A stretch of 39,756 nucleotides of DNA. Origin: Candidatus Krumholzibacteriota bacterium (GTDB taxonomy: Bacteria > Krumholzibacteriota > Krumholzibacteriia > JAJRXK01). The position numbers were made by a program, and so were the translations under genes. The stretch spans positions 1 to 39,756 of the forward strand of contig JAJRXK010000031.1 in NCBI GenBank assembly GCA_024276305.1, written 5' to 3'. A model generated the notes under the pieces. That model searched no databases. It was not told the origin of the DNA and was given only the letters and a program-made list of their open reading frames with translations. Below are positions 14,394-37,613 of this stretch, in pieces. Each line of letters starts with the position of its first letter. The stretch's first letter is position 1.

Positions 14394-14416
14394 CCCCCTC
14401 ACGAACAGGTCCCAAT

Positions 14417-18083: not shown

Positions 18084-18112
18084 AGCATAGACGCCGCGTG
18101 GTCTGGAATCAA
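18084..18112 (-). promoter_or_regulatory. Candidate sigma70-type promoter of malK
   Basis: On the minus strand, TTGATT (18112-18107) and TATGCT (18089-18084) are separated by exactly 17 bases, giving 4/6 matches to each consensus hexamer. Transcription would begin near 18077, leaving a leader of about 40 bases. Found by eye, not tested. Confidence 0.4.
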
Positions 18113-18135
18113 TGTCGGCCTGGGACGATCCGCGA

Positions 18136-18163
18136 TTGGGTTGAATGAAGAGTCTGCTAGACT
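18136..18163 (+). promoter_or_regulatory. Weak candidate promoter of the GH133 gene
   Basis: TTGGGT and TAGACT are separated by 16 bases, with a start point about 34 bases before the ATG at 18204. It shares the 168-bp divergent region with malK, so joint control of the two genes is possible. Confidence 0.25.
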
Positions 18164-18203
18164 GTCCGTCGATCCGTCACTCTCAGCCGAGGAGTTCGTC
18201 TCC

Positions 18204-20278: not shown

Positions 20279-20335
20279 CTGCTCCCCTCGTGTCTGGGGA
20301 GTTTCACACTCCTCCACCTTCTCCAGGAGAGTCCC

Positions 20336-23300
20336 ATGTCCCGCCCGCCCCGTCCGATGCCATACATGATCCTCACCCTGTTCCTGGCGCTCCTGCTTCC
20401 GGCGGGAGTGAAGGCTGACCCGGTCACCTTCCGAGTCGAAGCACCGGGAGCCGCCAGTGTCATGCTGGCCGGAGAGTTCAACAACTGGAGTGACTCGGCC
20501 CAGGCCATGACCGATGAAGATGGCGACGGCGTGTTCGAAGTGGAACTCGACCTCTCTCCGGGGACCTACCAGTACAAGTTCGTCGTCGATGGAAACTGGA
20601 GGGAGGATCCCAACTCCGCCGACTACAAGGACGACGGCTTCGGGGGAAAGAATTCGGTCATTGTCGTCGAGGGTGACGCAGCCCCGGCAACGACCACTGC
20701 CGGCGAGGCTTCTGACGCCTCACCCGACGGCACTCGCAAGGTACGCTTCGTGGTCGAGGCTGCGGGATCGCAACGAGTCTACCTTGCGGGAGAGTTCAAC
20801 AGCTGGAGCGACTCGGCCCAACCCATGGTCGACGAAGACGGCGACGGCAACTTCGAAGTCGTCCTCGACCTCGCACCGGGCAGGTATGCCTACAAATTCG
20901 TGATCGATGGCAATTGGCACGAGGACACCAACGCCAGCGCATTCGTGGATGATGGTTTCGGAGGAAAGAACTCGGTGGTGACCGTTGTCGCCGGTGAAGG
21001 GATCCAAGATGCCGGCGCCGCCGGCACGGCCACCGAAACCACGACTGACGGCTCCGGACAGACCGCCGTCCCCGCTCCAGCCGCCGAAGGCCTGCGCTCG
21101 GTGGAGTTTCGCTACCAGCCCGTGATCAGCGGAGTGACGGAAGTCTCCCTCGCAGGCTCCTTCAATGATTGGAGCGTCGGAGTCACGCCCATGACCGACC
21201 CCGATGGCGACGGAATCTACAGCGCGACGCTTCTCCTCGCCCCCGGCAACTATCAGTACAAGTTCGTAGTGGATGGCACCTGGATCACTCCCGATGATGC
21301 GGACGACTTCGCCGACGACGGATTCGGCGGGAAGAATGGCGTGGTGCACGTCGATGCTCGCTACAACCGGATCGAAGTCGAGGTCGGCGACGGCAAGTTC
21401 TACCTCGACGGACTCGACCTTCAGGTCGACTACAGCACGGTGAATGAGGTCTCTCCCGGAGAAGTCGTCTTTCGTACTCGCGCCTACCTCGGCGATGTTC
21501 AAGACGTGGACTTGCTCATCGAGCAACCCGGCCAGGATGCGCAGCGCTTGCCCATGCGAATCTCTCAGAAAGATGCGGTGTTCGCGAATTACGAGGCCAC
21601 CGTTCACCTCGACGATCCCGGCGCTGGCTGTCGCTTCACCTTCGCCTGGCGCGATGGCGACGCGGAGCGTTTCGCCCTGGGAACGGGGGGCTTTGCCGAC
21701 AAGAGACCCGCTCCCACCGCGTGGGGGCTCTATTCGCACGACATCCTTCCTCCCTTCGAAGTACCCCTCTGGGCGCAGCAGGCGGTTTACTACCAGATCT
21801 TCCCCGAACGCTTCCGGAACGGAGATCCCTCCAACGATCAGGATTTTCACGAGGCCTACTACGACCAGCGAAAGACGCTCCCGCCCAGTGGAAAGACCAA
21901 CCGCGAATACTTCCACTTCGAATCGGATTGGAACGATGTGTCCGGACTCCAGCGCAGTCCCTATCGCACCGACGGCAAGCCGGATTACTACAGCTTCTAC
22001 GGCGGCGACATCCAGGGGGTCATGGAGAAGCTCGATCATCTCAAGAGCATCGGAGTCAGCGTGATTTACTTCAATCCGCTGACCGCGGCGAGAAGCAACC
22101 ATCGCTACGACCCCTGCGACTACCTCAAGCTCGATCCGCACCTTGCGAGTGAAGATCTCTTCCGAGAATTCACTTCGAAAGCACTGGACATGGGAATCCG
22201 AGTCATCGTGGACATGGCCTACAACCACACCGGTGATTGCCATTTTGCCTTCGAGGACGTTCTCGAGAAGTGGACCGACAGCCCCTACTACAACTGGTAC
22301 GAGTGGAAAAAGCGCCCACCTTCTTATCCCCTTCCCCCCGGAGAGAAGGCCATCGACTACTACGACTGTTGGTGGGGTTTCGGACTGCATCCCAATCTGA
22401 ACTACGACTTGAGTCGTCCGAACAATCAGGAGAATGGCGTCGTCGATATCGCTGACGCCCAGCCCAACTGGGATATGGTGAACTACCTGCTCGACTCGGT
22501 GGACTACTGGCTGGGAGACCTCGGTTGTAGCGGATTCCGGCTGGATGTGCCCAACGAGGTCCCGTTCTGGTTCTGGAAGCTCTTTCGGGAACGATGCCGA
22601 GAGGTTCGACCTTCTCATGTACTGATGGGTGAGATCTGGGGAGATGCAGGATCGTGGATCGGACCGGATGTCTTCGATGCGGTGATGAACTACAAGTACT
22701 TCAAGGATCCGGTGGTCAAGTGGATCGGCCAGCATCAGGGAAATGCAACCTCCTTCGATCGTGAACTCGCTCCCGGCCGCACCCGTTATCCCCTGCAGGC
22801 GGTCCGAGCACAGATGAATCTCATCGACAGCCACGACACGGCACGTTTTCTGAACGTCGCCGGGGGAGATCCGCGCAGGCTTCGCCTCGCCGCCACCTTC
22901 TCCATGACCTATGTGGGTGCACCCCACATCTACTATGGCGATGAGGTCGCTCTCGCCGGGGATCGAGACCCCGATTGCCGGCGCACCTTCCCCTGGGATC
23001 AGATCGCGGTCCCCGCGAGGGCGAAGCATCTCGAGCACTACCAGGCACTTGGCCAACTCCGCAGCGAACACGAAGCGCTCAGTCTGGGCAGCTTCCAGAG
23101 CGTATTGGCCAAGGGAGATGTCTACGCCTACCTCCGAGAATATGGCGAAGATCGCATTCTGGTGGTCTTGAACGATGGCAATAGCCCTCAGACCGTGATT
23201 CTGCCGGTGGGGAACGTGGGAATCGCCGATGGGAGTACTCTCCGAGTCCTTCTGGCCTCGCCTTCTCAGACCACCGAGCCGGTGTCCCGGGGGGTGACTC

Positions 23301-23365
23301 GATTGACCGTCCCTCCGGTGTCTGGCGTGGTTCTGGCGGTGGAGCCCACCGCCCACGGACGCTGA
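20336..23365 (+). CDS. GH13 amylase/neopullulanase-like enzyme with three glycogen-binding modules
   Basis: The 1009-residue protein starts at ATG 20336 (aggaga 5 bases upstream) and has a signal peptide ending near AGVKA. Three tandem CBM48/AMPK-type modules lie at about 30-112, 134-217 and 253-340; each reads AGxFNxWS, DGDG, PGxYxYKFVxDGxW, DDGFGGKN, and they are joined by Ala/Thr-rich linkers. A CBM34-like beta domain (about 343-455) precedes the GH13 barrel. Region I is DMAYNH; the nucleophile is D737 (GFRLDVPNE), the acid/base E766 (LMGEIWGD) and the third acid D834 (DSHDTAR). Domain order resembles neopullulanase/cyclomaltodextrinase (GH13_20). It should cut starch, pullulan or dextrins outside the cytoplasm while held to the polymer. 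It lacks the FlgD-type C-terminal domain, so it may be periplasmic. A terminator follows. Confidence 0.9.
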   Translation: MSRPPRPMPYMILTLFLALLLPAGVKADPVTFRVEAPGAASVMLAGEFNNWSDSAQAMTDEDGDGVFEVELDLSPGTYQYKFVVDGNWREDPNSADYKDDGFGGKNSVIVVEGDAAPATTTAGEASDASPDGTRKVRFVVEAAGSQRVYLAGEFNSWSDSAQPMVDEDGDGNFEVVLDLAPGRYAYKFVIDGNWHEDTNASAFVDDGFGGKNSVVTVVAGEGIQDAGAAGTATETTTDGSGQTAVPAPAAEGLRSVEFRYQPVISGVTEVSLAGSFNDWSVGVTPMTDPDGDGIYSATLLLAPGNYQYKFVVDGTWITPDDADDFADDGFGGKNGVVHVDARYNRIEVEVGDGKFYLDGLDLQVDYSTVNEVSPGEVVFRTRAYLGDVQDVDLLIEQPGQDAQRLPMRISQKDAVFANYEATVHLDDPGAGCRFTFAWRDGDAERFALGTGGFADKRPAPTAWGLYSHDILPPFEVPLWAQQAVYYQIFPERFRNGDPSNDQDFHEAYYDQRKTLPPSGKTNREYFHFESDWNDVSGLQRSPYRTDGKPDYYSFYGGDIQGVMEKLDHLKSIGVSVIYFNPLTAARSNHRYDPCDYLKLDPHLASEDLFREFTSKALDMGIRVIVDMAYNHTGDCHFAFEDVLEKWTDSPYYNWYEWKKRPPSYPLPPGEKAIDYYDCWWGFGLHPNLNYDLSRPNNQENGVVDIADAQPNWDMVNYLLDSVDYWLGDLGCSGFRLDVPNEVPFWFWKLFRERCREVRPSHVLMGEIWGDAGSWIGPDVFDAVMNYKYFKDPVVKWIGQHQGNATSFDRELAPGRTRYPLQAVRAQMNLIDSHDTARFLNVAGGDPRRLRLAATFSMTYVGAPHIYYGDEVALAGDRDPDCRRTFPWDQIAVPARAKHLEHYQALGQLRSEHEALSLGSFQSVLAKGDVYAYLREYGEDRILVVLNDGNSPQTVILPVGNVGIADGSTLRVLLASPSQTTEPVSRGVTRLTVPPVSGVVLAVEPTAHGR
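20423..21355 (+). repeat. Three tandem glycogen-binding module repeats
   Basis: DNA for the three modules is at about 20423-20671, 20735-20986 and 21092-21355. Each ends with codons for DDGFGGKN. Modules 1 and 2 are closer to each other than to module 3, which suggests a recent internal duplication; this is a by-eye judgement. Confidence 0.7.
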
Positions 23366-23416: not shown

Positions 23417-23453
23417 GGGCCCGATCCAATCGAAAGATTGATCGGGCCTTCTT
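23417..23453 (+). terminator. Rho-independent terminator with GAAA loop
   Basis: The stem pairs 23418-23431 with 23436-23448 (13 bp with one bulged C), closed by a GAAA tetraloop and followed by ttctt. It lies 50 bases after the amylase stop and should separate that gene from the operon beginning at 23542. Confidence 0.7.
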
Positions 23454-23471
23454 GACTCCGCGATCAATCTT
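23434..23471. repeat. 11-bp perfect inverted repeat overlapping terminator and promoter
   Basis: aagattgatcg at 23434-23444 is the exact reverse complement of 23461-23471. The left half is also the 3' arm of the terminator, so the two hairpins are mutually exclusive. The right half sits in the spacer of the candidate operon promoter. It could be an antiterminator arm or an operator. Confidence 0.5.
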
Positions 23472-23480
23472 CTCCACTAT
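23452..23480 (+). promoter_or_regulatory. Candidate promoter of the glucan-uptake operon
   Basis: TTGACT (5/6) at 23452-23457 and CACTAT (3/6) at 23475-23480 are separated by 17 bases, about 60 bases before the operon's first ATG. The -10 is poor, which would suit an activator-dependent promoter; that is inference. Confidence 0.3.
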
Positions 23481-23541
23481 CGTGCGGCTTTGCCACTCTT
23501 CTGGTGCCCCATTAGTCCCGAGCCACGCGAGTCGAAGCTCC

Positions 23542-26500
23542 ATGCTCCATTCAACTCTTCGCCGTACCATCGGTGTGTGTGCGCTGCTGTTCTCAGCCAC
23601 GTCCCTCCACGCTACGACCTACAACTCTCCGATCGTCGACGACGGAGTGCTGCCCGCTCTCGACGGGACCGGTGACAACAGTTGGGCTGCGGATGAACTC
23701 TTGGTCGACGACCAGGGGGATGGAGAGCCCTGGGGACCCTTCAATGTTCTCGACGGATTCTGGGTCACTTGGGACGCCAACGGCATCTACTTCTCGGTCA
23801 TTGGCAAGATTTGGGATACCCCCACCGGCATCGGCGGCAATGCCGTGAACTTGTACATCGACTCCGACTTCGGACAGGGTACCGGGCCGAGTGACATGAG
23901 TGCGATCGATCCGGCCGCGTTGGGAGCAGTGAGCCGGAACATCTCGCGCACCTTCACGGTGGACGGCGGTTTCGGAGTGGATTGGGGCTACACCACCTGG
24001 GCCGGTCGCTTCGACCTCGGATTCCTGGACCTCAGCGACCCTGCCTTGCCGGTGAATCTCTTCGAGGGCATCACCGATGGTCAGTCCGTCGCCACCCATA
24101 CCAGTCCTGAAGGCGTGATCGAATCCCGCGACCTTCTGGGCAACGGTGGATACGAACTCTTCATCCCCTGGACGGTGCTCTATCCTGCCCTTCCTGCGGG
24201 ACAGGTGCCAGCGGGAACCCAGATGGCGATCGTCGTGGCCCAGATGGGCGGTGGAGACAGCCTTTCGCCCGAGAGTATTCCCGACGAACTCGGAGACCGG
24301 AACCTGAGCGAAAGCGTGGTCTTCACCGTCGATGCCGACGGCGACGGGATTCCCGATCTGGACTGGCCCCCCTCGGGCTCGATCGCCGGAACCGTCACTC
24401 TGAGTGATCCCACGGATCTGACTTCGCAGGTCGATGTCTTGGGATTCCTCGACGGAGTCCGAGTGGCCAAGGCCACGACCCCTGCCGGCGGAGGCGCCTA
24501 CCTGCTGCCGCGCCTGGGGCCCGGCACCTATACCGTGAGCCTCGAATCGCCGATCTACGTGGCCGACGATCGCACCGTGGTGCTGGCGGAAGGGGAGGAC
24601 CGGACCGGAGTCGACATTGCGGCGACGAAGGTCAACAGCGGCGTGGATCTTTCGTTCCGCTTCACCGATGGACCCGAAGCGCTCGCGCGCAGTCTCGATG
24701 TCCACTACCGACTCGAACGGGTGACGGACTCTCGGGTCTTCGCCGAGGCGACCTTGGGGGTCGGTGATGCCCTCAGTCTCCGTGTAGCTCCGATTCCTCC
24801 TGGAAACTACCGCCTTCTGGCTTGGACCGAATCCCTCGATCCATTGGTCCTGCGACGGACCGGATATCGCCCTCTCGACTTGGATCTCGACATTGTCGCC
24901 GACCAATACCTCGACCCCGGATCCCTCGACTTCTCTTTGGTCCAACCAACGCGAATCGCCTTCGCGACCCCGGAAAGCATCGCCGACGACCTGGTCACGG
25001 TGACCGCCACCGGAGTCTCGGCCAGCCTTCCCGCCGAGGGTTTCTTCGCGCGACGCAACCTGATGATCGTTCTTCTCGACGATGTGGGGAACGAAGCCTT
25101 GATCACCCCCGCACTGCGCGGCTCCGTGTCACTGGCGGCGACCGACATCGACCCTCGGCAGCCCGCGGCTGGCGCAGTGCAGTACTGGACCTTCAGTGGA
25201 GACACCACTCCCGTCGCCCTGGCGGGGGACAATCCCTCGCTCAGCGTTGTCGACCCGGTGGCCATCGTCCCCACTCGAGCCATGTTGCGCATCTCCTCCG
25301 ACACCACTCAGGTTCTGCGTCTCCGGGCCGCCGAACCCACCCTGGGGTTTGCGGACCTCGAAATCAAAGTGACCCCCCGACTCCCGGCCGCGATTCGCAT
25401 GACCCCCAGTCGTCGCACGGCTATCGCTGGCGAAGAGATCACCCTCGACCTTCAATTGCTCGATGTGAGTGGTGATGCTTCTCAGAGCTCGGACATCCTC
25501 ATCCGATTCGAGGTCGACGACAGCGGTGTCGACCCTCTGTTGCGGGGCCTGGCCACGGTGAATCCCTCCCAGGTTCTGTCGCGAACCGATGGATCGGCTT
25601 CGGTGACCCTGCAAAGCCCCGCCGCGGGAGTTCTGCGGTTGAGGGCCATGGGTTTCGTACAGCAGGACACCATATACTCCCCGGTGGACAGTCTGACTCT
25701 CAGCCCCGACCTCTCCGACCATGTGGCCCTGGTGGCGAGGCAGAGCTCGAGTTCGAGGCTCGAGGTCGAAGCTCGATTGGTGGACCAATTCGGAAATACG
25801 GTCACCGACGATCCTCGCACGCTCGGCTTTTCGGCCGCTCCCGCCGAACTCGTCAGTGCCGCACCTTCGTCGGTGAGCCTCGACGCCACCGGCATCGCAC
25901 AGCTGGACGTGACTCTCCTCGCGAACCGGGGAGGGATCGTGACTCTCAGCGCCAGCGACCCCACCCTCCCGGTGACGACTTCCACCGCAGCCATCGAAGT
26001 GCGCCCCGGCCTCATCGCTTCGGACGAGGCAGCGCCGGAAAGTGACGACGCACACAACTCCAATCCCTCCATCGATCTGACCAATGTCTTCGCGACCGTG
26101 GTACGGGATACTCTCGAGATCTCCATTCCCTTCGTGAGCGATTTCAACGGAGCCCATATCGCGCTCCTTCTCGAAGTCAATGGCGATGCCGGTGGAGCGT
26201 TCAACGACCCCTTCACCTTCCCGATCAGCTACGCCCACTCTCTGCTGCCCGACTACGTCCTGACCTACAAGTATGCGGCAGATGACTACGGTGATCTTCG
26301 ACGCCAAGCCGGACCGCCGGGAAGCTGGGAGTGGTACAACTTCCGCACCCAGAGCTGGGCCAGTGGATTCGAGGAAGGAGTGAATGCCAAGGTCGAGGGA
26401 ATGATGGGCAAGACCCTCGACTCGGTGTTCTTCCGCATCCCCATCCGCGGGCTGAAATCGGATTTCGTGGCCGGCATGGATACGGTTCGGGTGGAGACCT

Positions 26501-29160
26501 ATGTCATGCAGGAAGACGGCGAGAAACGCCCGGCCCTGGACTCCTCTCCCGCAGATGCCACCGTCGACATGATCCCGCCCAGCGGAAACTGGTTCGACTC
26601 CTCCAACTTGATTCCGACCACCCTCAGCCAATGGGCCGCGATGGTGCCCGTGGAGATCGGGACCTCACTGCGCATCCTCGACGCGAGCTTCAGCCCGACG
26701 GTCAGTACTCAAGGTGACCTGGTCCTGATCCAAGCTCAACCCGGCTTCGAAGGTGCCACACCGTCCAATGCCAACCTGCAGGTCTTCGCAGACCTCACCA
26801 CCAACTTCGGCGGTGATGCCCTCACTCCCATGTTCGACGACGGGAGTCACGGCGACGCGCTCGCGGGAGACGGAATCTATTCTACCCAGATCACGGTTCC
26901 GGCTTCGTTGCTCGCCGGTGACTACAGCGTGACCCTCCGGGTGATCGATGTCGCCTCGTCCCAACAGGCATTCGGCCGGGCCACCCTCACTGTGGAAGGC
27001 GAGCCGGAACTGACTCCTCTGGTGGTGATCACCGATCCGGCCGGAGACGACCACGGACCGAACCGCCCCGGCGAACAGTTCCTCTTCTACGAGTATCCCA
27101 CATCGGGAGTGTTCTTCGACGGCGTCTTCGATCTGCGCCGCTTGGAGATCTTCGATGTGGGAGATCGCCTGCTCTTCCGGGTGCAGATCACGGACCTCAC
27201 CAATCCCGCCGAACCTGGCGCCTCCGACTGGAATGCGATCTACCCCTCCGATGACACCTGTCCCGCCGGGTCGCGCATCGATCTGAATCTTCAGAACGTC
27301 GTGATCCTCCTCGACACCAAGGATGGGAACAACGTCGGATCCTCCAACCTCCCCGACAACCGGCGAGCCGGAGTGGCCGGGCAGGACGCATGGGAGTACG
27401 CCTTGGTCTACGACGGTTGGTGGAAGGGCGTGGTCCGAAGCAATGGATCGAGCCAACAGGGACTGTGGGAGACCCTACCCAACGACTCGGACTGGTTCTT
27501 CTGTGCCAACGACCAGACGAATACCATTGATGGTTTCCTCAACAAGGAGGTCTTCGCATCTGGAGATCTCGACAACATCCAGGAATGGGACATCACCGTC
27601 CTCATGAGCGGTCATGACGGCAACAGTGACAAGAACAACTGGGGAGCAGTCCGTTGGGTCAACGAGGGTATCGCCGAGTGGCAATTCGGCGGAGGACGCA
27701 ACGGAGAGGGCACGAGTGACCGCGATCCCAATGTCGTCGACATCATGACCCTGGCCGGGATCTCACCCACCGGAGAACCCAAACCGCCTGGCCGGCCCCA
27801 AGAAGAGCAGATGAACTTTCTGACTGCAGCGGCCCGAGCGCGCTTCGCCCTGGGACAACCCGCAGTCCTATTCGAGGCCACCGAATTCGTCGACGACGTC
27901 CCCCCCAGCGTGCAGTGGATGGGAATCACGCCCGATCGAGGGATCATCCCCTGGGCTGTGCTTCAGGACAGTCCGGTGGTGGTACGCTCTCGCCTGGTCG
28001 ACGCCGCCGGCGTGGAGAAGGCGACTCTGTTCTGGCGGGCTCCCGGCGAGGCTCCTTCCCAGGCCCGCGCCGTTCCCATGGGACAGCTGCGGGGAGACAT
28101 CGACGAGGGCGGCTCCGAATGGGTTGCGGACCTGCGGTGGGAGGAGATTGCGGCGGCCACCGATACCGGCCCGCTCTCCGACCCGGCCGGCCTGAGTGAC
28201 CGGGTTCGCTACATCTACGTCAGCATCGAGGCCACGGACAAAGTTGGCAACACTACGGCCACCGGCAGTGAGCGCGTCGAGGAGGCTCTGGAACTCCCCG
28301 TCGACCCCATCACCGACATTCACTACCCCAGCATCGATCGTCAGACCGGAACCGATTTCCTGGAGGTCGATCTGAACGAGGGCTCGCAGCTGCGCATCCC
28401 CCGCAGCGTGGTCACCTCTCTCGCTCCGGACAGCAGCCAATGGCAACTCGATCTCGATCTGAGGGCCGTCCCCGCCAACGAGCTCGATTTCTCCTTCACC
28501 GGCAATCTGAGTGAATCGATCGTTCGCAGGGACGATCGATTCCTGGGGATGGTGCGGGAACTGAAGTTGAGCACCTTCGACGCGGTCACCGGCGACCGGC
28601 AGGTCGTCGATCGTTTTCCAGAGCCTGTGGAATTGAGTCTCCACTTCCCCCGCTATCTCCTGGGCGACGACAAACCGTCAGAGCTGCAGTTCTTCCGGTG
28701 GAATGAACGGACACGACGGTGGATTCTGGTGGGTGCGCACGGCGAGCGGTCGGGCACCACCGTAACCGCACGTCTGGATCGTCTTGGGACCTATGCAGTG
28801 TTCTCACGCCCCGGAAACGTGGAGTTGGACAAAGCCGTCACCGGCCTGCAACTCAGCCCGAATCCCTTCTCTCCCAACGGAGATGGACTCTACGATGACC
28901 TCAACATCTCCTACGTTCTCCCCGGAGACACCGAATCGGCCATCGTCGAAATCTTCGATCGTCGCGGCACCCGTCTGAAGATTCTCACCTTCTTCGTCGG
29001 CGACGGGGTCACCAACCGAACCCTCGGCCTGACCTGGGACGGACGAGACGAATCGGGCAATTACGTCCCCCGCGGAATCTACGTAGTGAGAGTCGAAGTT
29101 AGAGACAGTCAAGACAACCGTGTGGAGCGAGCAACCAAAGCCGTGGCGGTGATCCGATGA
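23542..29160 (+). CDS. Giant surface protein with glucodextranase-C/DOMON-like domains
   Basis: The 1872-residue protein has a signal peptide (MLHSTLRRTIGVCALLF..., cleavage near SLHA); ATG 23542 is chosen for this, as its Shine-Dalgarno is weak. In order: a DOMON-like module (about 30-270), a carboxypeptidase-regulatory-like beta domain (276-366), Ig-like regions, a second DOMON-like stretch (826-1003), an Ig-like domain (1036-1153), a glucodextranase C-terminal-type domain (1156-1420) beginning ITDPAGDDHGP, a fibronectin-like domain (1476-1590), and a FlgD-type C-terminal domain (1769-1872, LSPNPFSPNGDG ... PRGIYVVRVEV). No hydrolase active site is recognised. Glucodextranase-C/DOMON domains accompany amylopullulanases and bind glucans, so this may be a surface scaffold that catches polymer. 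First gene of the operon; its stop overlaps the next start (ATGA). Confidence 0.82.
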   Translation: MLHSTLRRTIGVCALLFSATSLHATTYNSPIVDDGVLPALDGTGDNSWAADELLVDDQGDGEPWGPFNVLDGFWVTWDANGIYFSVIGKIWDTPTGIGGNAVNLYIDSDFGQGTGPSDMSAIDPAALGAVSRNISRTFTVDGGFGVDWGYTTWAGRFDLGFLDLSDPALPVNLFEGITDGQSVATHTSPEGVIESRDLLGNGGYELFIPWTVLYPALPAGQVPAGTQMAIVVAQMGGGDSLSPESIPDELGDRNLSESVVFTVDADGDGIPDLDWPPSGSIAGTVTLSDPTDLTSQVDVLGFLDGVRVAKATTPAGGGAYLLPRLGPGTYTVSLESPIYVADDRTVVLAEGEDRTGVDIAATKVNSGVDLSFRFTDGPEALARSLDVHYRLERVTDSRVFAEATLGVGDALSLRVAPIPPGNYRLLAWTESLDPLVLRRTGYRPLDLDLDIVADQYLDPGSLDFSLVQPTRIAFATPESIADDLVTVTATGVSASLPAEGFFARRNLMIVLLDDVGNEALITPALRGSVSLAATDIDPRQPAAGAVQYWTFSGDTTPVALAGDNPSLSVVDPVAIVPTRAMLRISSDTTQVLRLRAAEPTLGFADLEIKVTPRLPAAIRMTPSRRTAIAGEEITLDLQLLDVSGDASQSSDILIRFEVDDSGVDPLLRGLATVNPSQVLSRTDGSASVTLQSPAAGVLRLRAMGFVQQDTIYSPVDSLTLSPDLSDHVALVARQSSSSRLEVEARLVDQFGNTVTDDPRTLGFSAAPAELVSAAPSSVSLDATGIAQLDVTLLANRGGIVTLSASDPTLPVTTSTAAIEVRPGLIASDEAAPESDDAHNSNPSIDLTNVFATVVRDTLEISIPFVSDFNGAHIALLLEVNGDAGGAFNDPFTFPISYAHSLLPDYVLTYKYAADDYGDLRRQAGPPGSWEWYNFRTQSWASGFEEGVNAKVEGMMGKTLDSVFFRIPIRGLKSDFVAGMDTVRVETYVMQEDGEKRPALDSSPADATVDMIPPSGNWFDSSNLIPTTLSQWAAMVPVEIGTSLRILDASFSPTVSTQGDLVLIQAQPGFEGATPSNANLQVFADLTTNFGGDALTPMFDDGSHGDALAGDGIYSTQITVPASLLAGDYSVTLRVIDVASSQQAFGRATLTVEGEPELTPLVVITDPAGDDHGPNRPGEQFLFYEYPTSGVFFDGVFDLRRLEIFDVGDRLLFRVQITDLTNPAEPGASDWNAIYPSDDTCPAGSRIDLNLQNVVILLDTKDGNNVGSSNLPDNRRAGVAGQDAWEYALVYDGWWKGVVRSNGSSQQGLWETLPNDSDWFFCANDQTNTIDGFLNKEVFASGDLDNIQEWDITVLMSGHDGNSDKNNWGAVRWVNEGIAEWQFGGGRNGEGTSDRDPNVVDIMTLAGISPTGEPKPPGRPQEEQMNFLTAAARARFALGQPAVLFEATEFVDDVPPSVQWMGITPDRGIIPWAVLQDSPVVVRSRLVDAAGVEKATLFWRAPGEAPSQARAVPMGQLRGDIDEGGSEWVADLRWEEIAAATDTGPLSDPAGLSDRVRYIYVSIEATDKVGNTTATGSERVEEALELPVDPITDIHYPSIDRQTGTDFLEVDLNEGSQLRIPRSVVTSLAPDSSQWQLDLDLRAVPANELDFSFTGNLSESIVRRDDRFLGMVRELKLSTFDAVTGDRQVVDRFPEPVELSLHFPRYLLGDDKPSELQFFRWNERTRRWILVGAHGERSGTTVTARLDRLGTYAVFSRPGNVELDKAVTGLQLSPNPFSPNGDGLYDDLNISYVLPGDTESAIVEIFDRRGTRLKILTFFVGDGVTNRTLGLTWDGRDESGNYVPRGIYVVRVEVRDSQDNRVERATKAVAVIR

Positions 29161-30062
29161 AAGGCCTGATGCACTTGCGATCTTCCGCCTTGGGCGTCGT
29201 CCTCGCCGTTGCTTCGATCGCAGGGGGAGCTGCCAACGCACACGCGGAATTCCTCGACTCCGAAGTCGGGGCTCGAGGGATTGCAATGGGTGGAGCCTTC
29301 GTGGCCGTCGGCGGCGACCCTGCCAGCATTTTCTGGAATCCCGCCGCGGTGCTCAGCGACCGCCGAGTCCAGGTGGCGGGAATGCGTACCCGCTTCTTCG
29401 ACGGAATCGAGGACCTGAACGAAGACTTCATCGGCGCCACCTTCCAGCTCACCGATGACCTCGCGGTGGCCACGGGATGGACGCGCACGGGCCTGGCCGA
29501 TCTCTACCACGAAGATGTCGTCAGCCTGGGAGTGGCCTGGCGGGTTCCGAAGACCAAGCTGCAGATCGGGGCCTCCGCGCTCTTCTATGGCGCGGATTCC
29601 CCGGCCTACGCCGAGCTCAACGACCCCAGCTATCTCGGCAAGCAGTGGAAGCCTTCGGCCAGCTTCGGACTCCTCTACGAATTCTCCCAGAACTTCCACG
29701 CTGGAGTCAGTTTCGAGAATCTGCTGACCCCCGAAATGGCCCTGCTCGCTACCACCACCGACATCGACGTGATCGGCGGACGTCGCCGCTTCGGAGTGGC
29801 CTACCTGCTCGAGAAGATCGTGAGATTCACGGCTGAACTCCGACACCACGACTTTCCGCGCTACTACGACCGGGACTGGACCTACCACGGTGGAGCCGAG
29901 TCCTGGTTCAATGACGTGCTGGCTCTCCGGATCGGTGTGGACAACGGAGATCTCACCGCCGGCGCCGGATTCGTCGTGCACCAGGTTCGTTTCGACGCCG
30001 GAATGCTGACCAATGAACGACTCGGGAACACATTTCGAGTCGCGATCACCGTGGGCTACTAA
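29157..30062 (+). CDS. PorV/UPF0164-like outer-membrane beta-barrel protein
   Basis: The 301-residue protein has a signal peptide ending near ANAHA, then EFLDSEVGARGIAMGGAFVAVGGDPASIFWNPAA, the hallmark N-terminus of PorV/UPF0164 proteins of the FadL-like barrel superfamily. The remainder alternates in beta-strand fashion and ends AITVGY. In Bacteroidota, PorV helps move and anchor proteins that carry C-terminal Por sorting domains. Here the gene overlaps by 4 bases (ATGA) with a giant protein bearing a FlgD-type C-terminal domain, so the pair is probably translationally coupled and may act together at the surface. The PorV role is inferred from family and context; no other type IX secretion gene is in the window. 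Confidence 0.75.
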   Translation: MKGLMHLRSSALGVVLAVASIAGGAANAHAEFLDSEVGARGIAMGGAFVAVGGDPASIFWNPAAVLSDRRVQVAGMRTRFFDGIEDLNEDFIGATFQLTDDLAVATGWTRTGLADLYHEDVVSLGVAWRVPKTKLQIGASALFYGADSPAYAELNDPSYLGKQWKPSASFGLLYEFSQNFHAGVSFENLLTPEMALLATTTDIDVIGGRRRFGVAYLLEKIVRFTAELRHHDFPRYYDRDWTYHGGAESWFNDVLALRIGVDNGDLTAGAGFVVHQVRFDAGMLTNERLGNTFRVAITVGY

Positions 30063-30100: not shown

Positions 30101-31606
30101 ATGAAACTCCCAACAACGCGCTGCCTGGCTCTCTGCGCCACGGTGGGCTTGGTCTTGGCCTCTCACGGGGCTCGAGCCGGAACCCAGCTGCAGGGATACT
30201 ACGAAGCGCGACTCGAATCGAGTCGCGGCGACGAGACCCTTCAGCTCAATATGCCCAATCACTACCTCGAACTGCGAACCCTCACCAATCCTTGGGAGCA
30301 TCTCGAAGGGTTCATGGAGTTGAGCGCCTCTTCCAATCGCTTCCGCAATATCAGCCCCGGATTCGATCCGAACTCCCAGACCAATCTGGATGCGGCATTC
30401 GTCCACGATCCCAAGGTATTCTTCAATGAAGGCCATGTGAAACTCCACGGCTCGAAGGCCGAAGTCCTCTTCTTCAGCTCTCAGAATCGATTCTGGTTCA
30501 GCCAACCGCTTCTGAACATCGTCGATGGCAACACCCTCCAGGACAGCCGCGATGGGCCTCGAGCTCAGGCCGTCCGCGTAGATTTCTGGGATCTGGCCGG
30601 GTTCCGCGGACTGATGTACTACGGAGACAAGGCCACCAATGGAGAAGACTTCGCGGCCGCACGAGTCACCCGTCCCTTTCTGTCGGGGGACATCCTGGCC
30701 GGCACCACGGTAGGACGGAGGGACTTCGGTTCTGCGACATCGGACTATGACCTGACCGGGGCGATGGACCTGGAATTCGCGCTGGGGAGTCTGATCCCCC
30801 CTCTCTCCCGCTTCGGAAGAACCACCCTGGTCGTCGAAGGGGGGCGGAACTTCTCATCTCGAAACGTCCCTTCGCGGAAGAGCCAACGCAACGGCTTTCA
30901 GATGGAACTACGGGACGTCAAAGTGCACGACGTGACGATAAAGGCCAATGCGTGGTATCGGGAACCGCGTTTCTACACCGGCATGAGCAGCCAGGAATTC
31001 AACAATGACCGCCGTGGCTTCTTTGCCGAGGCGTGGTACCGGGTTCCCACCAAGCAAATGGATCTGCGCTACGCCTTCTGGGGTGAACGGGCCCTCGAGA
31101 GAATCTCCACCCGGAACGAGCGATTTCAACAGTATGAGCATGCAGTCGAAGCCTATGCCGAGCTCAAGGGGGGATTCAGTGCCTGGGTGAAGTACCGTGA
31201 GTACCACACCAATGACAACACCACTGCGGAAGTCTTCCGCAGCGTGGTCTTCGAACTGCAGGCCCAGAACAAACTCATTTCGGTGAGGCCCCAAATCCGA
31301 GTTCGCGACATCTCCACTCCGTTCCAAGTCCAGGGTTTCGGCATGGAGATCAATCTCAACGCTACGAGCGACTGGAAGTTCTTCGCACGCTTCTTGAATG
31401 CGGCCGAGAACACCGAGTCGAGACGCACGTTCTTTCTGCAGACGCGATACAGCGGATTCCAGAGCGCCGAATTCTTCCTGGAGTACGGCGACGGCGGACG
31501 GTCGGATCGCCTGACCGAGAACGATTCCTTCGTCAGTGAAGGCCCCAGCGCTGTCGACCAGGACAGTGAGCGGCGGGTTCAAGCATTCCTCAAGTTGTGG
31601 TTCTGA
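30101..31606 (+). CDS. Outer-membrane beta-barrel protein, porin-like
   Basis: The 501-residue protein starts at ATG 30101, after gagggga about 7 bases upstream, and has a signal peptide with cleavage near GARAG. The mature part has alternating aromatic and polar strands with Asp/Asn-Gly turns and ends KLWF; a C-terminal phenylalanine is the usual BAM recognition signal. No TonB box, plug or SusC-like region is seen. I do not recognise a specific family. The position in the operon, between PorV-like and CBM-barrel genes, suggests a channel or assembly partner for oligosaccharide passage (inference). Confidence 0.65.
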   Translation: MKLPTTRCLALCATVGLVLASHGARAGTQLQGYYEARLESSRGDETLQLNMPNHYLELRTLTNPWEHLEGFMELSASSNRFRNISPGFDPNSQTNLDAAFVHDPKVFFNEGHVKLHGSKAEVLFFSSQNRFWFSQPLLNIVDGNTLQDSRDGPRAQAVRVDFWDLAGFRGLMYYGDKATNGEDFAAARVTRPFLSGDILAGTTVGRRDFGSATSDYDLTGAMDLEFALGSLIPPLSRFGRTTLVVEGGRNFSSRNVPSRKSQRNGFQMELRDVKVHDVTIKANAWYREPRFYTGMSSQEFNNDRRGFFAEAWYRVPTKQMDLRYAFWGERALERISTRNERFQQYEHAVEAYAELKGGFSAWVKYREYHTNDNTTAEVFRSVVFELQAQNKLISVRPQIRVRDISTPFQVQGFGMEINLNATSDWKFFARFLNAAENTESRRTFFLQTRYSGFQSAEFFLEYGDGGRSDRLTENDSFVSEGPSAVDQDSERRVQAFLKLWF

Positions 31607-31623: not shown

Positions 31624-33894
31624 ATGCGCAGATTCATCTGCACCCTTCTCCCTGTCCTCGCCTTCGGCGTTCTCGCTTGGAGCGTGGGGATAGCCCCGCC
31701 TGCGGCGGCGGCCTACCGCGCTGTCGATGACGGCATCGAGTTCAGCTACACCGATCCGTCCGCCTCGAGCGTGGCGCTGGCCGGAGACTTCAATGAATGG
31801 AGTACGTCGGCCACTCCCCTGTCGGATGAGGACGGAGACGGAATCTGGACCGTAGTCATCGCCCTTCCTGCAGGATCACACGAATACAAATTCGTGGTGA
31901 ACGGCGGCACCTGGGTGGCAGATCCCGACAACCCTCTCACCGGCGGTGATTTCGGGAATTCTCTCATCAACGTCGGCGCCGACGGCAAGGCCGCCGCGCC
32001 CGGTGCGGCGGCGAAGCCCTCGTTGCCTTCCGGAACGCCCTCGGTCTCGAACACCCCGCTGCACAGCAAGGTCTACATGGGCGGATTCTTTCGCATGCTC
32101 ATGAAAAGCCGAACCAAAGCGGATGGTGACACCCGGCTGCGGGTTCAGCGTCCCGAAGACCAGTTCAACCTCGATGTGACGGCCAACCTGAACCAAAAGG
32201 TATGGGGAACACTTCGGTTGCAGGTTCGAACCGGTGCCGGGGGTGCCAACGAACTCACAACCGATCTCTACAAAGCTCAAAGCAATTTCGAAGAAGACAA
32301 TTTCCAGGTGAAGGCGTTCTACAACGACGAAGTCTTCAACTCCGACGAGCCTCTCGAACTACTCGGCCACATCGACCTACGGGGAACGATCACCGAGGAA
32401 CACCGTCCGTTCGGACAGGGCCTTCAGGGAGCCATCCTCAGGATGCAGCCCTTCGGCGGACAGCTCGAGATCCTATACGCCGACACTTACGACCGAGACA
32501 TCTTCAATCGAAGCGAGCCCACCATTGCGGATCCCCGCAAAGATGGCCTGAATCAGAACACGGGAACCGATGTAGTCTTCGGACGATGGTCCCGCCAGGT
32601 CGGATCCAGTCTCTTCGGATTCAGCTACCGCGGTGAATTCTCGGATTGGTGGGTCAACTTCACCAAACAGGAGAACCCCTATCCCACCGAGGTGAGCGAT
32701 CACCGCGATGCGCAGGTTCGGCCCAACGACGACGACAAATCCGACAACTTCGAGTTGGCGAATGATCGGCAATTCGGAGCCATCGACCTGACCCTTCCTC
32801 TCCCCGAGGATCTCACTCTCCAGGCCAGCGGGGGGTACGGGTGGTACTCCGCCCGGTGGGACCTGGGGAACCGAGAAGATGTCCAAGGGCAGGGATTCGT
32901 GAACGGCAAAGTCGACCTTCCCATCGGCAACCAGCAGTTCTACCGGACGAAAGTAGTTCTGTCCGGGGATCGATCCGGTCTCAGGGCGCGAGCCAGCCAC
33001 GAAATCAACTACGAGCTGGGAATGGACGCCGGTGAGAATCAGATCGTCTATCGCACCCAGCCCGGGAGCACGATCGAGGATCGCGATCGCTTCGTAGTTC
33101 AGGACATTCGTCAGATCTACCAGGATGTGAACGGCGTCGATGCCCTGGACGTCCTGCGACTCGGCCCCGCGCCCCAGGCTCTGACCCACCGCACGGAAAT
33201 CGATCTGAGCTATGACTGGCACGATTGGACCGTGGATCTCGAGTTCGACCGTATCCGGGACAATCTGAACTTCGTGGACTTCTCCGGCAACGGCCCCGCG
33301 ACCCTCAATCGCTGGAGATGGCGGACGAGCCCGCGTCTGCATTGGAAGCCCTTCCAGAAGGAACGCTACCACCTCAGCTTGTTGAGCGAGTTCCTCAGAA
33401 CGAACAATCCCTCGGTTTTCGACGCGGTGGGCGCCGCGAATACTCAGCCCGCCCTGCCGGCCCAGGGATACGGTTCGTTCGTGGGCATGGAGAGCAACGA
33501 AATCATCTTCCAAGGACTCGTGCCCGCCGAACGATTCTTGGGTGCTTCTCTGGATCTCCGTTTCGATCTGCGGTTCATCAGCTACAATGGCCCCGACAAC
33601 CTCTCCGACTCCAATGGCCAGCCGCTCGACCTCGATCGCGACTTCGTAGCATACTATGCTGCCCTGGTGTATCGACCGATCGAACGCGTGCATGTCGAGG
33701 TGGGAGTGGGCGTAGATCCCACCTTCTACGACGTCATCACCCCTGAGGGTTGGGGGAACGGGCGCCAGCAGTTCCGAGATGATTATCTCGTGCAACAGCG
33801 CCTCGACCCCTACAATCCCATCAACGTCCTCGATGCGGAACAGGAACTCGAAGACCGGGTTCAGTTGAGCATCAACGCGCTCATCACTTTCTGA
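31624..33894 (+). CDS. Outer-membrane beta-barrel with N-terminal glycogen-binding module
   Basis: The 756-residue protein starts at ATG 31624, chosen because ggag lies 9 bases upstream and the signal peptide MRRFICTLLPVLAFGVLAWS begins there; an in-frame ATG at 31606 lacks such support. After cleavage near PPAAAA, residues about 34-118 form one CBM48/AMPK-type module (LAGDFNEWS, DEDGDGIWTV, LPAGSHEYKFVVNGGTWVADP). A Pro/Ala linker (about 119-145) leads to about 610 residues of strand-rich sequence ending INALITF, a typical outer-membrane barrel C-terminus. No TonB plug is recognisable. In standard barrel topology the N-terminal module would face the periplasm, where it could draw in maltodextrins. 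A starch-binding module on a porin-like barrel is a fusion I do not know from described systems. Confidence 0.78.
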   Translation: MRRFICTLLPVLAFGVLAWSVGIAPPAAAAYRAVDDGIEFSYTDPSASSVALAGDFNEWSTSATPLSDEDGDGIWTVVIALPAGSHEYKFVVNGGTWVADPDNPLTGGDFGNSLINVGADGKAAAPGAAAKPSLPSGTPSVSNTPLHSKVYMGGFFRMLMKSRTKADGDTRLRVQRPEDQFNLDVTANLNQKVWGTLRLQVRTGAGGANELTTDLYKAQSNFEEDNFQVKAFYNDEVFNSDEPLELLGHIDLRGTITEEHRPFGQGLQGAILRMQPFGGQLEILYADTYDRDIFNRSEPTIADPRKDGLNQNTGTDVVFGRWSRQVGSSLFGFSYRGEFSDWWVNFTKQENPYPTEVSDHRDAQVRPNDDDKSDNFELANDRQFGAIDLTLPLPEDLTLQASGGYGWYSARWDLGNREDVQGQGFVNGKVDLPIGNQQFYRTKVVLSGDRSGLRARASHEINYELGMDAGENQIVYRTQPGSTIEDRDRFVVQDIRQIYQDVNGVDALDVLRLGPAPQALTHRTEIDLSYDWHDWTVDLEFDRIRDNLNFVDFSGNGPATLNRWRWRTSPRLHWKPFQKERYHLSLLSEFLRTNNPSVFDAVGAANTQPALPAQGYGSFVGMESNEIIFQGLVPAERFLGASLDLRFDLRFISYNGPDNLSDSNGQPLDLDRDFVAYYAALVYRPIERVHVEVGVGVDPTFYDVITPEGWGNGRQQFRDDYLVQQRLDPYNPINVLDAEQELEDRVQLSINALITF

Positions 33895-33914: not shown

Positions 33915-34655
33915 ATGAACTGCCGCCGAGGAATCATCCACACCGCGATTGCGATCGTCCTGCTGACGATGCTCGCCGGATGCAGTCTTCTGTCCTTCGT
34001 CGAGGACCGCCTCCCACCTCCCGCTCCGTCAGACACGGGGATTCTCTTCAAGTACAAGGCTCCTGCGGCGCGACAGGTCAATCTCGCGGGTGAGTTCAAC
34101 AACTGGCTCGGCACCGCCAACGGTGGGCGACTCGATCCCAACCTCGACGCAATGCGTGACCCCGATGGAGATGGGATCTGGGAAATCACCCTTCCCCTAC
34201 CTCCCGGACGTTACCAATACAAGTACCTCATCGACCAAGTCGACTGGCAGGAAGACCCCGGGAATCCCGAAACCACCGACGACGGGTTTGGCGGCAAGAA
34301 CTCCATCCTGGTCGTGACCACCAACCCTGGCTATCCCTACGACGAGAACTACATCAGTTATTCTCTGGGAACCGGTTCGAGGATCAAGGTCGAACGAGAG
34401 CACGACTTCTTCCTCGAGGGATTCGCAGATGCGGAGCAGGTCTTCGTGACCGGTTCCTTTTCCGACTGGGATCCCAAGGCGTACCTCATGGGACTCGGCG
34501 ACGATGGTCGCTGGCACGTGCGGGTGAAACTTCCGGCTGGAAAACACCTCTACAAGTTCGTGGTAGACGGCACCTGGATGCCGGATCCGGGCAACGACAG
34601 TGCGGAAGACGACGGCTACGGAAGCAAGAACTCCGTTCTCCAGATCGAGGGCTAG
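33915..34655 (+). CDS. Lipoprotein with two glycogen-binding modules
   Basis: The 246-residue protein starts at ATG 33915, 7 bases after gaggag. The lipobox is LAGC with Cys23. Essentially all of the mature protein is two CBM48/AMPK-type modules, about 41-135 (LAGEFNNWLG ... PGRYQYKYLID ... DDGFGGKN) and 163-246 (VTGSFSDWDP ... AGKHLYKFVVDGTW ... DDGYGSKN). It has no catalytic domain. It is presumably a membrane-anchored maltodextrin-binding protein, functionally comparable to SusE/SusF of Bacteroides but built from a different module (analogy only). It lies 20 bases after the CBM-barrel gene and 13 before the malE-like gene, consistent with passing sugar from porin to ABC transporter. Confidence 0.82.
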   Translation: MNCRRGIIHTAIAIVLLTMLAGCSLLSFVEDRLPPPAPSDTGILFKYKAPAARQVNLAGEFNNWLGTANGGRLDPNLDAMRDPDGDGIWEITLPLPPGRYQYKYLIDQVDWQEDPGNPETTDDGFGGKNSILVVTTNPGYPYDENYISYSLGTGSRIKVEREHDFFLEGFADAEQVFVTGSFSDWDPKAYLMGLGDDGRWHVRVKLPAGKHLYKFVVDGTWMPDPGNDSAEDDGYGSKNSVLQIEG

Positions 34656-34668
34656 ACCCAGGGGTACC

Positions 34669-35910
34669 ATGCGAGGCCACTTCCTGCGCTTCCACCGGTG
34701 GATCGGGTGGCCCTTGGTCTTGGGTCTGATATCCTGCGCTCCGACCAGCGACGACCCCCATCGGCTCAGCATCTGGGAGCAGATGGAGCCGGCCGAGCAG
34801 CGACTGCTCCACGAGCATCTCCAACAGTTCGAAACCGAGCACCCCGGGGTCCAGGTCGACGTAGTTCATTTCGAGACCGAGAATCTTCGGAACAATTATC
34901 AGACCGCGGCGCTGGCCCGTACCGGACCCGATCTCGTCTACGGACCCAGCGACCACGTCGGGCCCTTCAGCATCATGGGTCTGATCGAGCCACTGGAGAA
35001 TGTCTTCTCCGCCGACAGCCTCGCCCTGTTCCTCGAGGATGCCAAACCCTCCCTGGAGGGCCACGTGCTTCGGCTCGCAGACCAAGTGGGCAATCATCTG
35101 ACCCTGGTCCTCAACCGCAAGTACGTGGATCACGTTCCCGTCGACACGGAAGATTTTCTGGAGATCGCGCGATCGAATACCGTGGACGAGAACGGTGACG
35201 GGAAGACCGACCGCTACGGCATCGTCTTCAATCTGACCGAACCCTTCTGGCTGGTACCCTGGCTGGGAGGCTACGGCGGATGGGTCATGGACGAGAACTC
35301 CAAACCCACCCTCGACACTCCAGCCATGCGCGAAGCCCTGTCCTTCGTCCGAAGACTGGTGGACGAGGGTGTGATCCCGCCGAGCTGCGACTACCCCCTG
35401 GCCGACACCTTGTTCAAGCAAGGCAGCGCAGCCATGACCATCAACGGACCCTGGTCCTGGGAGAGCTACCGAGAGCAGGGGATCGACATCGAGCTCGCGC
35501 TCCTGCCCCGAATTGCGGGCCGCGATTCCTGGCCCCAACCCATGACCTCTTCCAAGGGATACTCCCTGAACCGGTGGATCCCTCCCGCTCGGCATCCCCT
35601 GGCCGTGGAGCTCCTCGCCTTTCTGACTTCGGCTCGGGTGGTCGGACGCATCAGTGAAGAGCTCGGGACTCTGCCCAGCCGGAGCGACGTGTCGCAGTGG
35701 CCTCGCCTCCAAGCGAACCCCACTCTCCACTCCAGCTGGGCCCAGCTGGTGAAGGGCCGCCTCATGCCGGTGGTTCCCGAAATGAGAGTGCTCTGGGACG
35801 TCATGCGACCCGGATTGCAGCATGTGATCTCGGGCCGGCTCAGTCCTGAGGAGGCTGCCCGCTCCATGCAGCAATCCGCGCTGCGCAAGATCGAGGAGCT
35901 CCGAAAGTGA
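34669..35910 (+). CDS. MalE-like maltodextrin-binding lipoprotein of an ABC importer
   Basis: The 413-residue extracytoplasmic solute-binding protein (family 1) starts at ATG 34669, after cagggg 4 bases upstream. The signal ends LGLISC, making Cys23 a lipidation site; enteric MalE is instead a soluble periplasmic protein. Family landmarks include LSIWEQMEPAEQ near the N-terminus, GDGKTDRYGIVF, AAMTINGPWSW and SARVVGRISEELGTLPSR. It should bind oligosaccharides and deliver them to the MalF/MalG-like permeases encoded next; the stop overlaps the following GTG start. The maltodextrin specificity comes from context (GH13, GH57 and CBM neighbours), not from a binding-site comparison. Confidence 0.87.
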   Translation: MRGHFLRFHRWIGWPLVLGLISCAPTSDDPHRLSIWEQMEPAEQRLLHEHLQQFETEHPGVQVDVVHFETENLRNNYQTAALARTGPDLVYGPSDHVGPFSIMGLIEPLENVFSADSLALFLEDAKPSLEGHVLRLADQVGNHLTLVLNRKYVDHVPVDTEDFLEIARSNTVDENGDGKTDRYGIVFNLTEPFWLVPWLGGYGGWVMDENSKPTLDTPAMREALSFVRRLVDEGVIPPSCDYPLADTLFKQGSAAMTINGPWSWESYREQGIDIELALLPRIAGRDSWPQPMTSSKGYSLNRWIPPARHPLAVELLAFLTSARVVGRISEELGTLPSRSDVSQWPRLQANPTLHSSWAQLVKGRLMPVVPEMRVLWDVMRPGLQHVISGRLSPEEAARSMQQSALRKIEELRK

Positions 35911-36782
35911 GCCGCCGCACCGTCGCCTGGTGGTTCCTGCTGCCCTCGGCCCTCGTCCTGGGCGCGGTGGTGGCCTGGCCTTTCGTCTACAATTTCTGGA
36001 TCAGTCTGACCGATCTGGGCCTCTACACCATCCGGGATGGCGCCCACTTCATCGGAATTCAGCAGTATCTTCGGGTGTTCGCGGAGCCCGACCTCTACCG
36101 CTACCTGCTTCGGACTCTGGTTTGGACCCTCCTCAATGTCTTCTTCCACGTACTCATCGGGGTCTCGATTGCGCTCATTCTCAATCGCCCCCTCCGAGGT
36201 CGCAGCCTCTACCGTGCGCTGCTCATCCTGCCGTGGGCTCTCCCCCAATACATCGCGGCTCTGAGCTGGCGAGGGATGTTCAACTACGAATTCGGTTCGA
36301 TCAATCTGCTCCTGGCAAAGCTGCACTTCTCCCCCATCCCCTGGCTCAGCACCGAAGTCGGAGCTTTTGCTGCGGCATTGATCACCAATATCTGGTTGGG
36401 CTTCCCCTTCATGATGGTCGTCGCCCTCGGCGGGTTGCAGAGCATTCCCCGGGAGATGTACGAGGCTGCAGAGATCGACGGAGCAGGTGCCTGGTGGCAG
36501 CTGCGGAAGATCACTCTCCCCCTCCTGCGACCGGTGATGATGCCGGCCATCGTGCTGGGCACGATCTGGACCTTCAACAATCTCAACGTGATGTGGCTGG
36601 TGACGAATCAAGGCGAGCCAGGAGATTCCAGTCACATTCTGGTCACCTATGTGTACAAAGCCGCCTTCAACTACTATCGCTATGGATACGCCGCTGCGTT
36701 CAGCGTGCTGATCTTCCTGATTCTGCTCGGCCTCACCTGGATCAACTACCGTCAGGCCTCTCGTTCCACCTACGGAGCCTAG
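35907..36782 (+). CDS. MalF-like ABC transporter permease
   Basis: The 291-residue inner-membrane permease starts at GTG 35907, within the GTGA overlap with the preceding stop, after gaggag 8 bases upstream. About six membrane spans are visible, the first at FLLPSALVLGAVVAWPFVYNFW. The EAA loop YEAAEIDGAGAWWQLRKITLP, which docks on the ATPase, is intact. It lacks the large periplasmic domain of E. coli MalF, as most sugar-ABC MalF relatives do. It forms the channel with the following MalG-like protein; the ATPase is probably the one encoded at 16923-18035. Confidence 0.9.
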   Translation: MSRRTVAWWFLLPSALVLGAVVAWPFVYNFWISLTDLGLYTIRDGAHFIGIQQYLRVFAEPDLYRYLLRTLVWTLLNVFFHVLIGVSIALILNRPLRGRSLYRALLILPWALPQYIAALSWRGMFNYEFGSINLLLAKLHFSPIPWLSTEVGAFAAALITNIWLGFPFMMVVALGGLQSIPREMYEAAEIDGAGAWWQLRKITLPLLRPVMMPAIVLGTIWTFNNLNVMWLVTNQGEPGDSSHILVTYVYKAAFNYYRYGYAAAFSVLIFLILLGLTWINYRQASRSTYGA

Positions 36783-36785
36783 ACC

Positions 36786-37613
36786 ATGAGAACCCGACTC
36801 TGCAGCCTCGGATGGCACCTTCTCCTGATCCTGCTGGTGATGGCGACCATCTACCCGGTCCTGCAGATCTTCTCCATCAGCCTACGGCCCTCGAATGCTC
36901 TCTACAGCACCAGCCTCCGCATCATTCCCGAAGATGCGAGCTTCGAGAGCTACCGAGTGATCCTCTTCGAGAAACCCTTCTGGATCTGGATGCGCAACAG
37001 TCTCATCGTCTCCTTCGCGACCGCCATCCTGGGGGTCACCCTCGCGTCGACCTCGGCCTATGCGCTGAGTCGATTCGAGCTCCGAGGAAAGAACCCCATG
37101 CTCTTCGGCATTCTCACCACCCAAATGTTCCCCGCCACCATGCTCCTGCTTCCGCTCTACCTACTGATGCGAAACCTGGGCCTGGTGAATACCCTCCTGG
37201 GAGTGGTCCTGGCCTACACCGCCACCGCTCTGCCGTTCTGCACCTGGACCATGAAGGGCTATTACGACACCATTCCGCGCTCCTTGGAAGAAGCGGGGTT
37301 GATCGACGGCCTCGACGAGTTGGGGGCCTTCTGGAGGATCACCCTGCCCTTGGCGGCGCCAGCCCTGGTGATCACCTTTCTCTTCAGCTTTCTGGCCGGC
37401 TACGCCGAGTTCATCGTGGCCCGGACCCTCCTGGTGTCCAAGGATCTCTACACCCTGCCTCTGGGCCTGGAGAGCCTGGCAAGCACCTTCCAGACCGAGT
37501 GGGCCAACTACGCCGCCGGCTCTCTCCTGGTGGCCATCCCGGTGGTGGCCCTCTTCCTCCTACTGAGTCGCTACCTCGTGGAGGGCCTCACCCTCGGTGG
37601 AGTCAAGGGCTGA
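36786..37613 (+). CDS. MalG-like ABC transporter permease
   Basis: The 275-residue inner-membrane permease begins 3 bases after the previous stop. The N-terminus has the usual first span (LLLILLVMATIYPVLQIFSISL) and the sequence shows about six spans. The EAA loop LEEAGLIDGLDELGAFWRITLP is intact. NSLIVSFATAILGVTLASTSAYALSRF-type wording is typical of MalG/CUT1 permeases. It is the last gene of the operon. No ATPase gene follows, which is unusual but common for transporters sharing one MalK. Confidence 0.91.
   Translation: MRTRLCSLGWHLLLILLVMATIYPVLQIFSISLRPSNALYSTSLRIIPEDASFESYRVILFEKPFWIWMRNSLIVSFATAILGVTLASTSAYALSRFELRGKNPMLFGILTTQMFPATMLLLPLYLLMRNLGLVNTLLGVVLAYTATALPFCTWTMKGYYDTIPRSLEEAGLIDGLDELGAFWRITLPLAAPALVITFLFSFLAGYAEFIVARTLLVSKDLYTLPLGLESLASTFQTEWANYAAGSLLVAIPVVALFLLLSRYLVEGLTLGGVKG

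Follow-up and report, generated by a model that had tools for sequence, protein, structure and literature searches.

What is understood of glycan uptake across the outer membrane comes mainly from two systems, LamB-type pores and SusCD pumps. Here, we describe a predicted outer-membrane barrel with an N-terminal glycogen-binding module of the CBM48/AMPK type from a member of the Krumholzibacteriota, a phylum that is little studied and known largely from metagenomes. The gene is located in a stretch of 39,756 nt of contig JAJRXK010000031.1 (GenBank assembly GCA_024276305.1), which was analysed as a whole and is referred to as the window.

Similar to LamB (PF02264), the fusion protein is a proposed plugless outer-membrane maltodextrin channel encoded beside malEFG and malK genes. 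However, it carries a CBM48 module and 22 predicted strands instead of the 18 strands of LamB and has no match to PF02264, and we therefore rejected its assignment as a LamB maltoporin. With Bacteroides SusC/SusD, it shares a predicted 22-strand barrel in the outer membrane and a starch cluster that also encodes GH13 enzymes and lipoproteins binding glycans, whereas a plug, a carboxypeptidase-like domain and SusD are absent from the fusion system, which has a Mal-type ABC transporter instead. Due to the absence of a plug or TonB-receptor Pfam match in the protein and of SusD in the genome, it was also rejected as a SusC/TonB-dependent receptor. The module belongs to the same family as the glycogen-binding domain (GBD) of the AMPK beta-subunit and the CBM48 domains of branching enzymes and has the same contact residues; those domains are found on cytosolic kinases or enzymes, whereas the fusion module is attached to a membrane barrel.

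The third barrel type considered was DUF5916 (PF19313), of which the same genome encodes three proteins. In DUF5916 proteins, an N-terminal domain resembling a sugar-binding module, CBM9-like as judged from its sequence, is likewise followed by an outer-membrane barrel, but the module is from another family and the barrels have no detectable homology (hhalign probability of 0.1% with one DUF5916 protein). As neither the window protein nor 20 family members match PF19313 and the profile comparison was negative, we rejected this assignment. A literature search, outside of which most subscription journals lay, returned no paper on a CBM48 or glycogen-binding module fused to an outer-membrane barrel and nothing relevant on barrels with other fused sugar modules. 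The statement of an earlier note on this DNA that no described porin with a starch-binding module was known to its author agrees with this, but it needs to be narrowed: DUF5916 proteins, with their CBM9-like module and barrel, are present in databases and in this very genome, and the combination of a sugar module with a barrel is as such not unprecedented.

Domain architecture of the fusion protein

The fusion gene is a single open reading frame of 756 codons, with an ATG at 31624 and a stop codon ending at 33894 (Table 1). The start codon is preceded by a GGAGG motif, and the stop codon of the upstream barrel gene is only 17 nt away. No promoter was found at the gene in a sigma-70 scan, which is uninformative for the phylum Krumholzibacteriota. 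The signal peptide, recognised by eye, consists of an RR pair, a hydrophobic core and the sequence AAAA-Y. In agreement with the earlier note, one frame joins a signal peptide, a single glycogen-binding module, a linker (around 30 residues) and a strand-rich domain ending in phenylalanine (around 608 residues).

Table 1. Features of the fusion gene and its surroundings (positions in the window).
Feature	Position	Strand	Basis or remark
CBM48-barrel fusion gene, 756 aa	31624..33894	+	open frame, Pfam, homologues
Sec-type signal peptide, about aa 1-30	31624..31713	+	AAAA-Y, read by eye
Single CBM48/AMPK1_CBM module, aa 34-118	31723..31977	+	Pfam, PDB sequence search, contact residues
Ala/Pro-rich linker, aa 119-148, low pLDDT	31978..32067	+	sequence, AlphaFold2
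Predicted outer-membrane barrel with 22 strands, aa 149-756, plugless, ending in Phe	32068..33891	+	Pfam, AlphaFold2, alternation
Second barrel-like protein, ends in Phe, no Pfam family	30104..31606	+	directly upstream of fusion gene
PorV/PorQ-like outer-membrane protein	29157..30062	+	subfamily match below cut-off
Large secreted surface-type protein, 1,902 aa, Glucodextran_C, CHU_C/FlgD-like C-terminus	23452..29160	+	
Lipoprotein (LAGC), two CBM48 modules	33915..34655	+	
MalE-like sugar-binding lipoprotein	34669..35910	+	
MalF-like permease	35907..36782	+	
MalG-like permease	36786..37613	+	
GH13 amylase/neopullulanase type, three N-terminal CBM48 modules	20303..23365	+	
Amylo-alpha-1,6-glucosidase (GDE_C) enzyme, debranching-type	18102..20234	+	
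MalK/UgpC-type ABC ATPase	16923..18035	-	
Secreted GH13 amylase with CBM48 and Por_Secre_tail (E 1.8e-8)	14372..16921 (also given as 13769-16921)	+	Por_Secre_tail suggests type IX secretion in the lineage

The module had been put forward as a member of the CBM48/AMPK1_CBM group. In hmmscan searches against Pfam, both profiles are above their cut-offs, AMPK1_CBM at residues 41-113 (E 9.3e-11, 42.2 bits compared to a gathering cut-off of 26.8) and CBM_48 at residues 35-95 (E 1.1e-9); all other Pfam domains in the protein were below cut-off. A phmmer search against the PDB aligned residues 48-117 with the GBD of AMPK beta-2 (2f15, E 3e-8). We take W100, K126, W133, N150 and T148 to be the glycogen-contact positions of AMPK. 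The equivalents of the first four, W59, K89, W97 and N112 in the fusion module, are invariant in all 44 modules compared (39 from the fusion family and five from neighbouring proteins), and the T148 position is replaced or deleted across these modules and deleted in the window protein. Based on the profile matches and the retained contact residues, the module is putatively glucan-binding.

One might argue that the module has lost its sugar binding and is an early-set domain with a purely structural function, which would be to cap the barrel on its periplasmic side or to stabilise it. The same genome encodes CBM48-like modules on a ParA-type ATPase and on an anti-sigma-like protein, which fits this idea and means that the module alone is no proof of a function in starch uptake. 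Against it stand the W, K, W and N contacts, which are present in 39/39 family modules examined, and the conservation of the module, which is higher than that of the barrel strands (0.66 versus 0.48). We therefore consider a purely structural module improbable.

Predicted fold of the barrel domain

AlphaFold2 models were calculated for the window protein with 19 relatives (mean pLDDT 70.4, pTM 0.66) and for the relative L069 with 22 others (pLDDT 83.5, pTM 0.71). In both models, a small beta-sandwich is connected by a linker of low confidence to 22 long up-and-down strands, and there is no plug. Outer-membrane barrels show a rhythm of long loops and short turns, and by general topology the side with the short turns is the periplasmic one. 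In the model of the window protein, loops of 6-53 residues alternate with turns of 2-8 residues; the gaps have a mean length of 24.6 residues after odd strands and 3.4 after even strands (p 1e-4), and both termini lie on the turn side. The hydropathy alternation within the strands exceeds that of shuffled sequences (p 0.003 for the window protein and 0.0002 for the relative), and a C-terminal Phe is present in 20/20 members. The protein thus combines a signal peptide, as read by eye, with an even number of amphipathic strands and a C-terminal aromatic residue, and an outer-membrane location is well supported.

In Foldseek, the models match TonB receptors best (E 1.3e-8 and 8.7e-10), followed by maltoporin, porins and AlgE. 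These matches to solved barrels are locally significant, yet have a global TM-score of only about 0.3 and an rmsd of 12-26 A, and no convincing sequence relative of the barrel part was found in the PDB, even with a 20-sequence profile. According to the models, the region is a predicted outer-membrane strand meander, which has the size of a TonB receptor and is plugless. The term porin-like, which had been used for this domain, holds for a predicted plugless outer-membrane barrel but not for the strand number, as 22 strands are typical of TonB receptors and classical porins have 16-18. Since the short turns are on the side of both termini, the predicted position of the N-terminal module is on the periplasmic side, as had been expected from ordinary barrel topology.

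A conserved family within the phylum

To avoid matches caused by the module, only the barrel part was used as the query in the search for homologues. They were found in 29/80 Krumholzibacteriota genomes, the homologue from the same genus being 47% identical to the barrel part, so that the predicted barrel is not a chance pattern. In all homologues that are not truncated at a contig end, the barrel is preceded by either one or two CBM48 modules, many relatives having the two-module version, and AMPK1_CBM is detected by Pfam in 20/20 aligned members. A GTDB scan yielded 24 loci, many of them from Krumholzibacteriota/Krumholzibacteriia, plus three more distant ones (L080-L082) with the same architecture. 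No relatives were found in plasmid and viral collections, and there was no match in PHROGs. The genome survey that the earlier note had called for thus shows a recurring architecture in a fixed cassette and not an isolated oddity, and the fusion represents a conserved family, which is apparently undescribed.

Gene neighbourhood

In the window, the genes from the surface protein through malG are on one strand and nearly contiguous. The fusion gene is part of a cassette with the order surface protein, PorV-like barrel, second barrel, fusion and CBM48 gene. The second barrel gene is located directly upstream of the fusion gene in 20/20 loci from other genomes, and the next gene downstream encodes a CBM48 protein in each of the 19 loci that reach that far; a GH13 enzyme or malEFG are close by in most of the 20 loci. 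With regard to a possible paralogy, the two barrels gave no BLASTP match to each other, and their profile comparison reached a probability of 30% over 163 columns. Across the 80 genomes, which share ancestry, so that the p-values overstate the independence of the observations, the fusion barrel and MalE occur together in 26 genomes, singly in three and three, and are both absent from 48 (Fisher 1.5e-14), and the second barrel is present in all 29 genomes with the fusion (Fisher 8e-18). In two genomes that have the second barrel and MalE (G014 and G019), the fusion is seemingly missing, which is accounted for by contig ends; in two others (G001 and G002), a diverged CBM48-barrel ORF is found in its place. 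Taken together, the starch context of the fusion gene is well supported.

The composition of the cassette could also point to a different function, namely that the fusion protein works with the PorV-like protein and the second barrel to export or anchor the surface protein or the amylases in a type IX-like manner, with the module only sorting or capping. Nearly always, the cassette encodes a PorV-like protein as well as the surface protein, which has a CHU_C/FlgD-type tail, an amylase with a Por_Secre_tail is encoded nearby, and diverged cassettes without nearby mal genes exist. Yet neither strictly kept glucan-contact residues nor a strong co-occurrence with MalE would be needed for export, and we regard such a role as quite unlikely.

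Alternatively, the barrel might serve as an anchor for a module that passes through it or alongside it to the cell surface and holds starch for the amylases, similar to SusE/SusF of Bacteroides. The other CBM48 proteins and the large surface protein of the cluster are compatible with this, the two-module versions in many relatives look like tethering arrays, and one member has a weak match to the SusF_SusE profile. However, the predicted pattern of loops and turns places the N-terminus on the periplasmic side, and the downstream CBM48 lipoprotein could already fill the anchoring function. A surface anchor is thus unlikely, in our view.

The diverged loci also inform on the association of the cassette with the transporter. 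In L080-L082, the cassette is kept next to a transporter whose identity is only about 22-30% and whose genes are in the order F-G-E, which indicates that the surface cassette stays constant while the sugar ABC transporter can change. In L081:12483-18892, malF-malG-malE follow the cassette and are themselves followed by a gene for a CBM48-bearing enzyme, which by eye resembles GH57; this arrangement suggests a transporter exchange beside a constant outer-membrane cassette. In G001 and G002, the diverged CBM48-barrel gene adjoins a PorV-like gene and a second barrel gene, and mal genes are absent from the stretch that was read. The role in starch uptake may therefore not be universal, and these two genomes are the main counter-evidence to it. 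The gene beside a diverged cassette, at L085:2686-5388 (+), has an apparent intein insertion when compared with its L086 counterpart.

Proposed function in alpha-glucan uptake

The reading that fits best is that alpha-glucans enter through a plugless channel in the outer membrane and that the module captures the maltodextrin on the periplasmic side; we give it an even chance of being correct. The LamB (PF02264) and SusD profiles have no match in the genome, and LamB is likewise missing from 15 further genomes that carry the fusion. The role of an outer-membrane channel thus appears vacant, even though three TonB receptors encoded elsewhere in the genome may offer another uptake route. The earlier note had proposed that the module could pull maltodextrins inward or gate the pore. 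A role in maltodextrin uptake is backed by the neighbouring malEFG, malK and GH13 genes, which the note did not mention and from which we infer the substrate; pulling or gating by the module would be a further, conjectural step.

We hypothesize that the predicted strands close into a conducting pore, so that alpha-glucan fragments (maltodextrins) would cross the outer membrane through a plug-free 22-strand barrel. The CBM48 module would be held by its flexible linker at the periplasmic mouth of this barrel, where it could bind the incoming glucan chains and bias their movement inward. In the next step, the glucan would be handed over to the MalE-like binding protein and the amylases of the cluster. 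Probably, a single surface system is formed by the fusion protein, the PorV-like protein, the second barrel, the lipoprotein with two CBM48 modules and the large surface protein. As the same fusion is found in a conserved starch-uptake cluster across the phylum, cells with this cluster probably import starch fragments in a way that has not been described. One might go further and speculate that starch has a third route across the outer membrane, which depends neither on LamB or SusCD nor on a TonB plug. In this scenario, the surface cassette would have five fixed parts, and the CBM48 module of a 22-strand barrel would stand in for the plug, gating the barrel from the periplasm or serving as a binding ratchet for glucan chains; this broader proposal is doubtful. 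A conserved barrel that carries its own glycogen-binding module would be a different solution for glycan uptake, as affinity for the glycan on the inner side could power the import independently of TonB. The cassette of five genes could also be used as a simple marker of starch use in these genomes.

Other CBM48 proteins and further observations

Additional proteins with CBM48 modules are encoded elsewhere in the genome. On contig C56, a ParA/MinD-type ATPase has a C-terminal AMPK-type glycogen-binding module (L087:4516-5655, -), and many other genomes of the phylum have matches in frames whose length is similar. On contig C43, a barrel-like protein with a C-terminal CBM48 adjoins an anti-sigma-like protein that also ends in CBM48 (L089:20-1348 and L089:1299-1994, both -), together with a sigma-factor-like gene. 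A secreted-type protein of 943 aa with a CBM48 at its end is encoded on contig C75 (L088:4263-7094, -). In the window itself, a Ser/Thr kinase with TPR repeats (4433-6997, -) is divergent from an adjoining sigma-factor-like gene (7337-7900, +), and a DDE transposase (143-1513, +) is located at the window edge.
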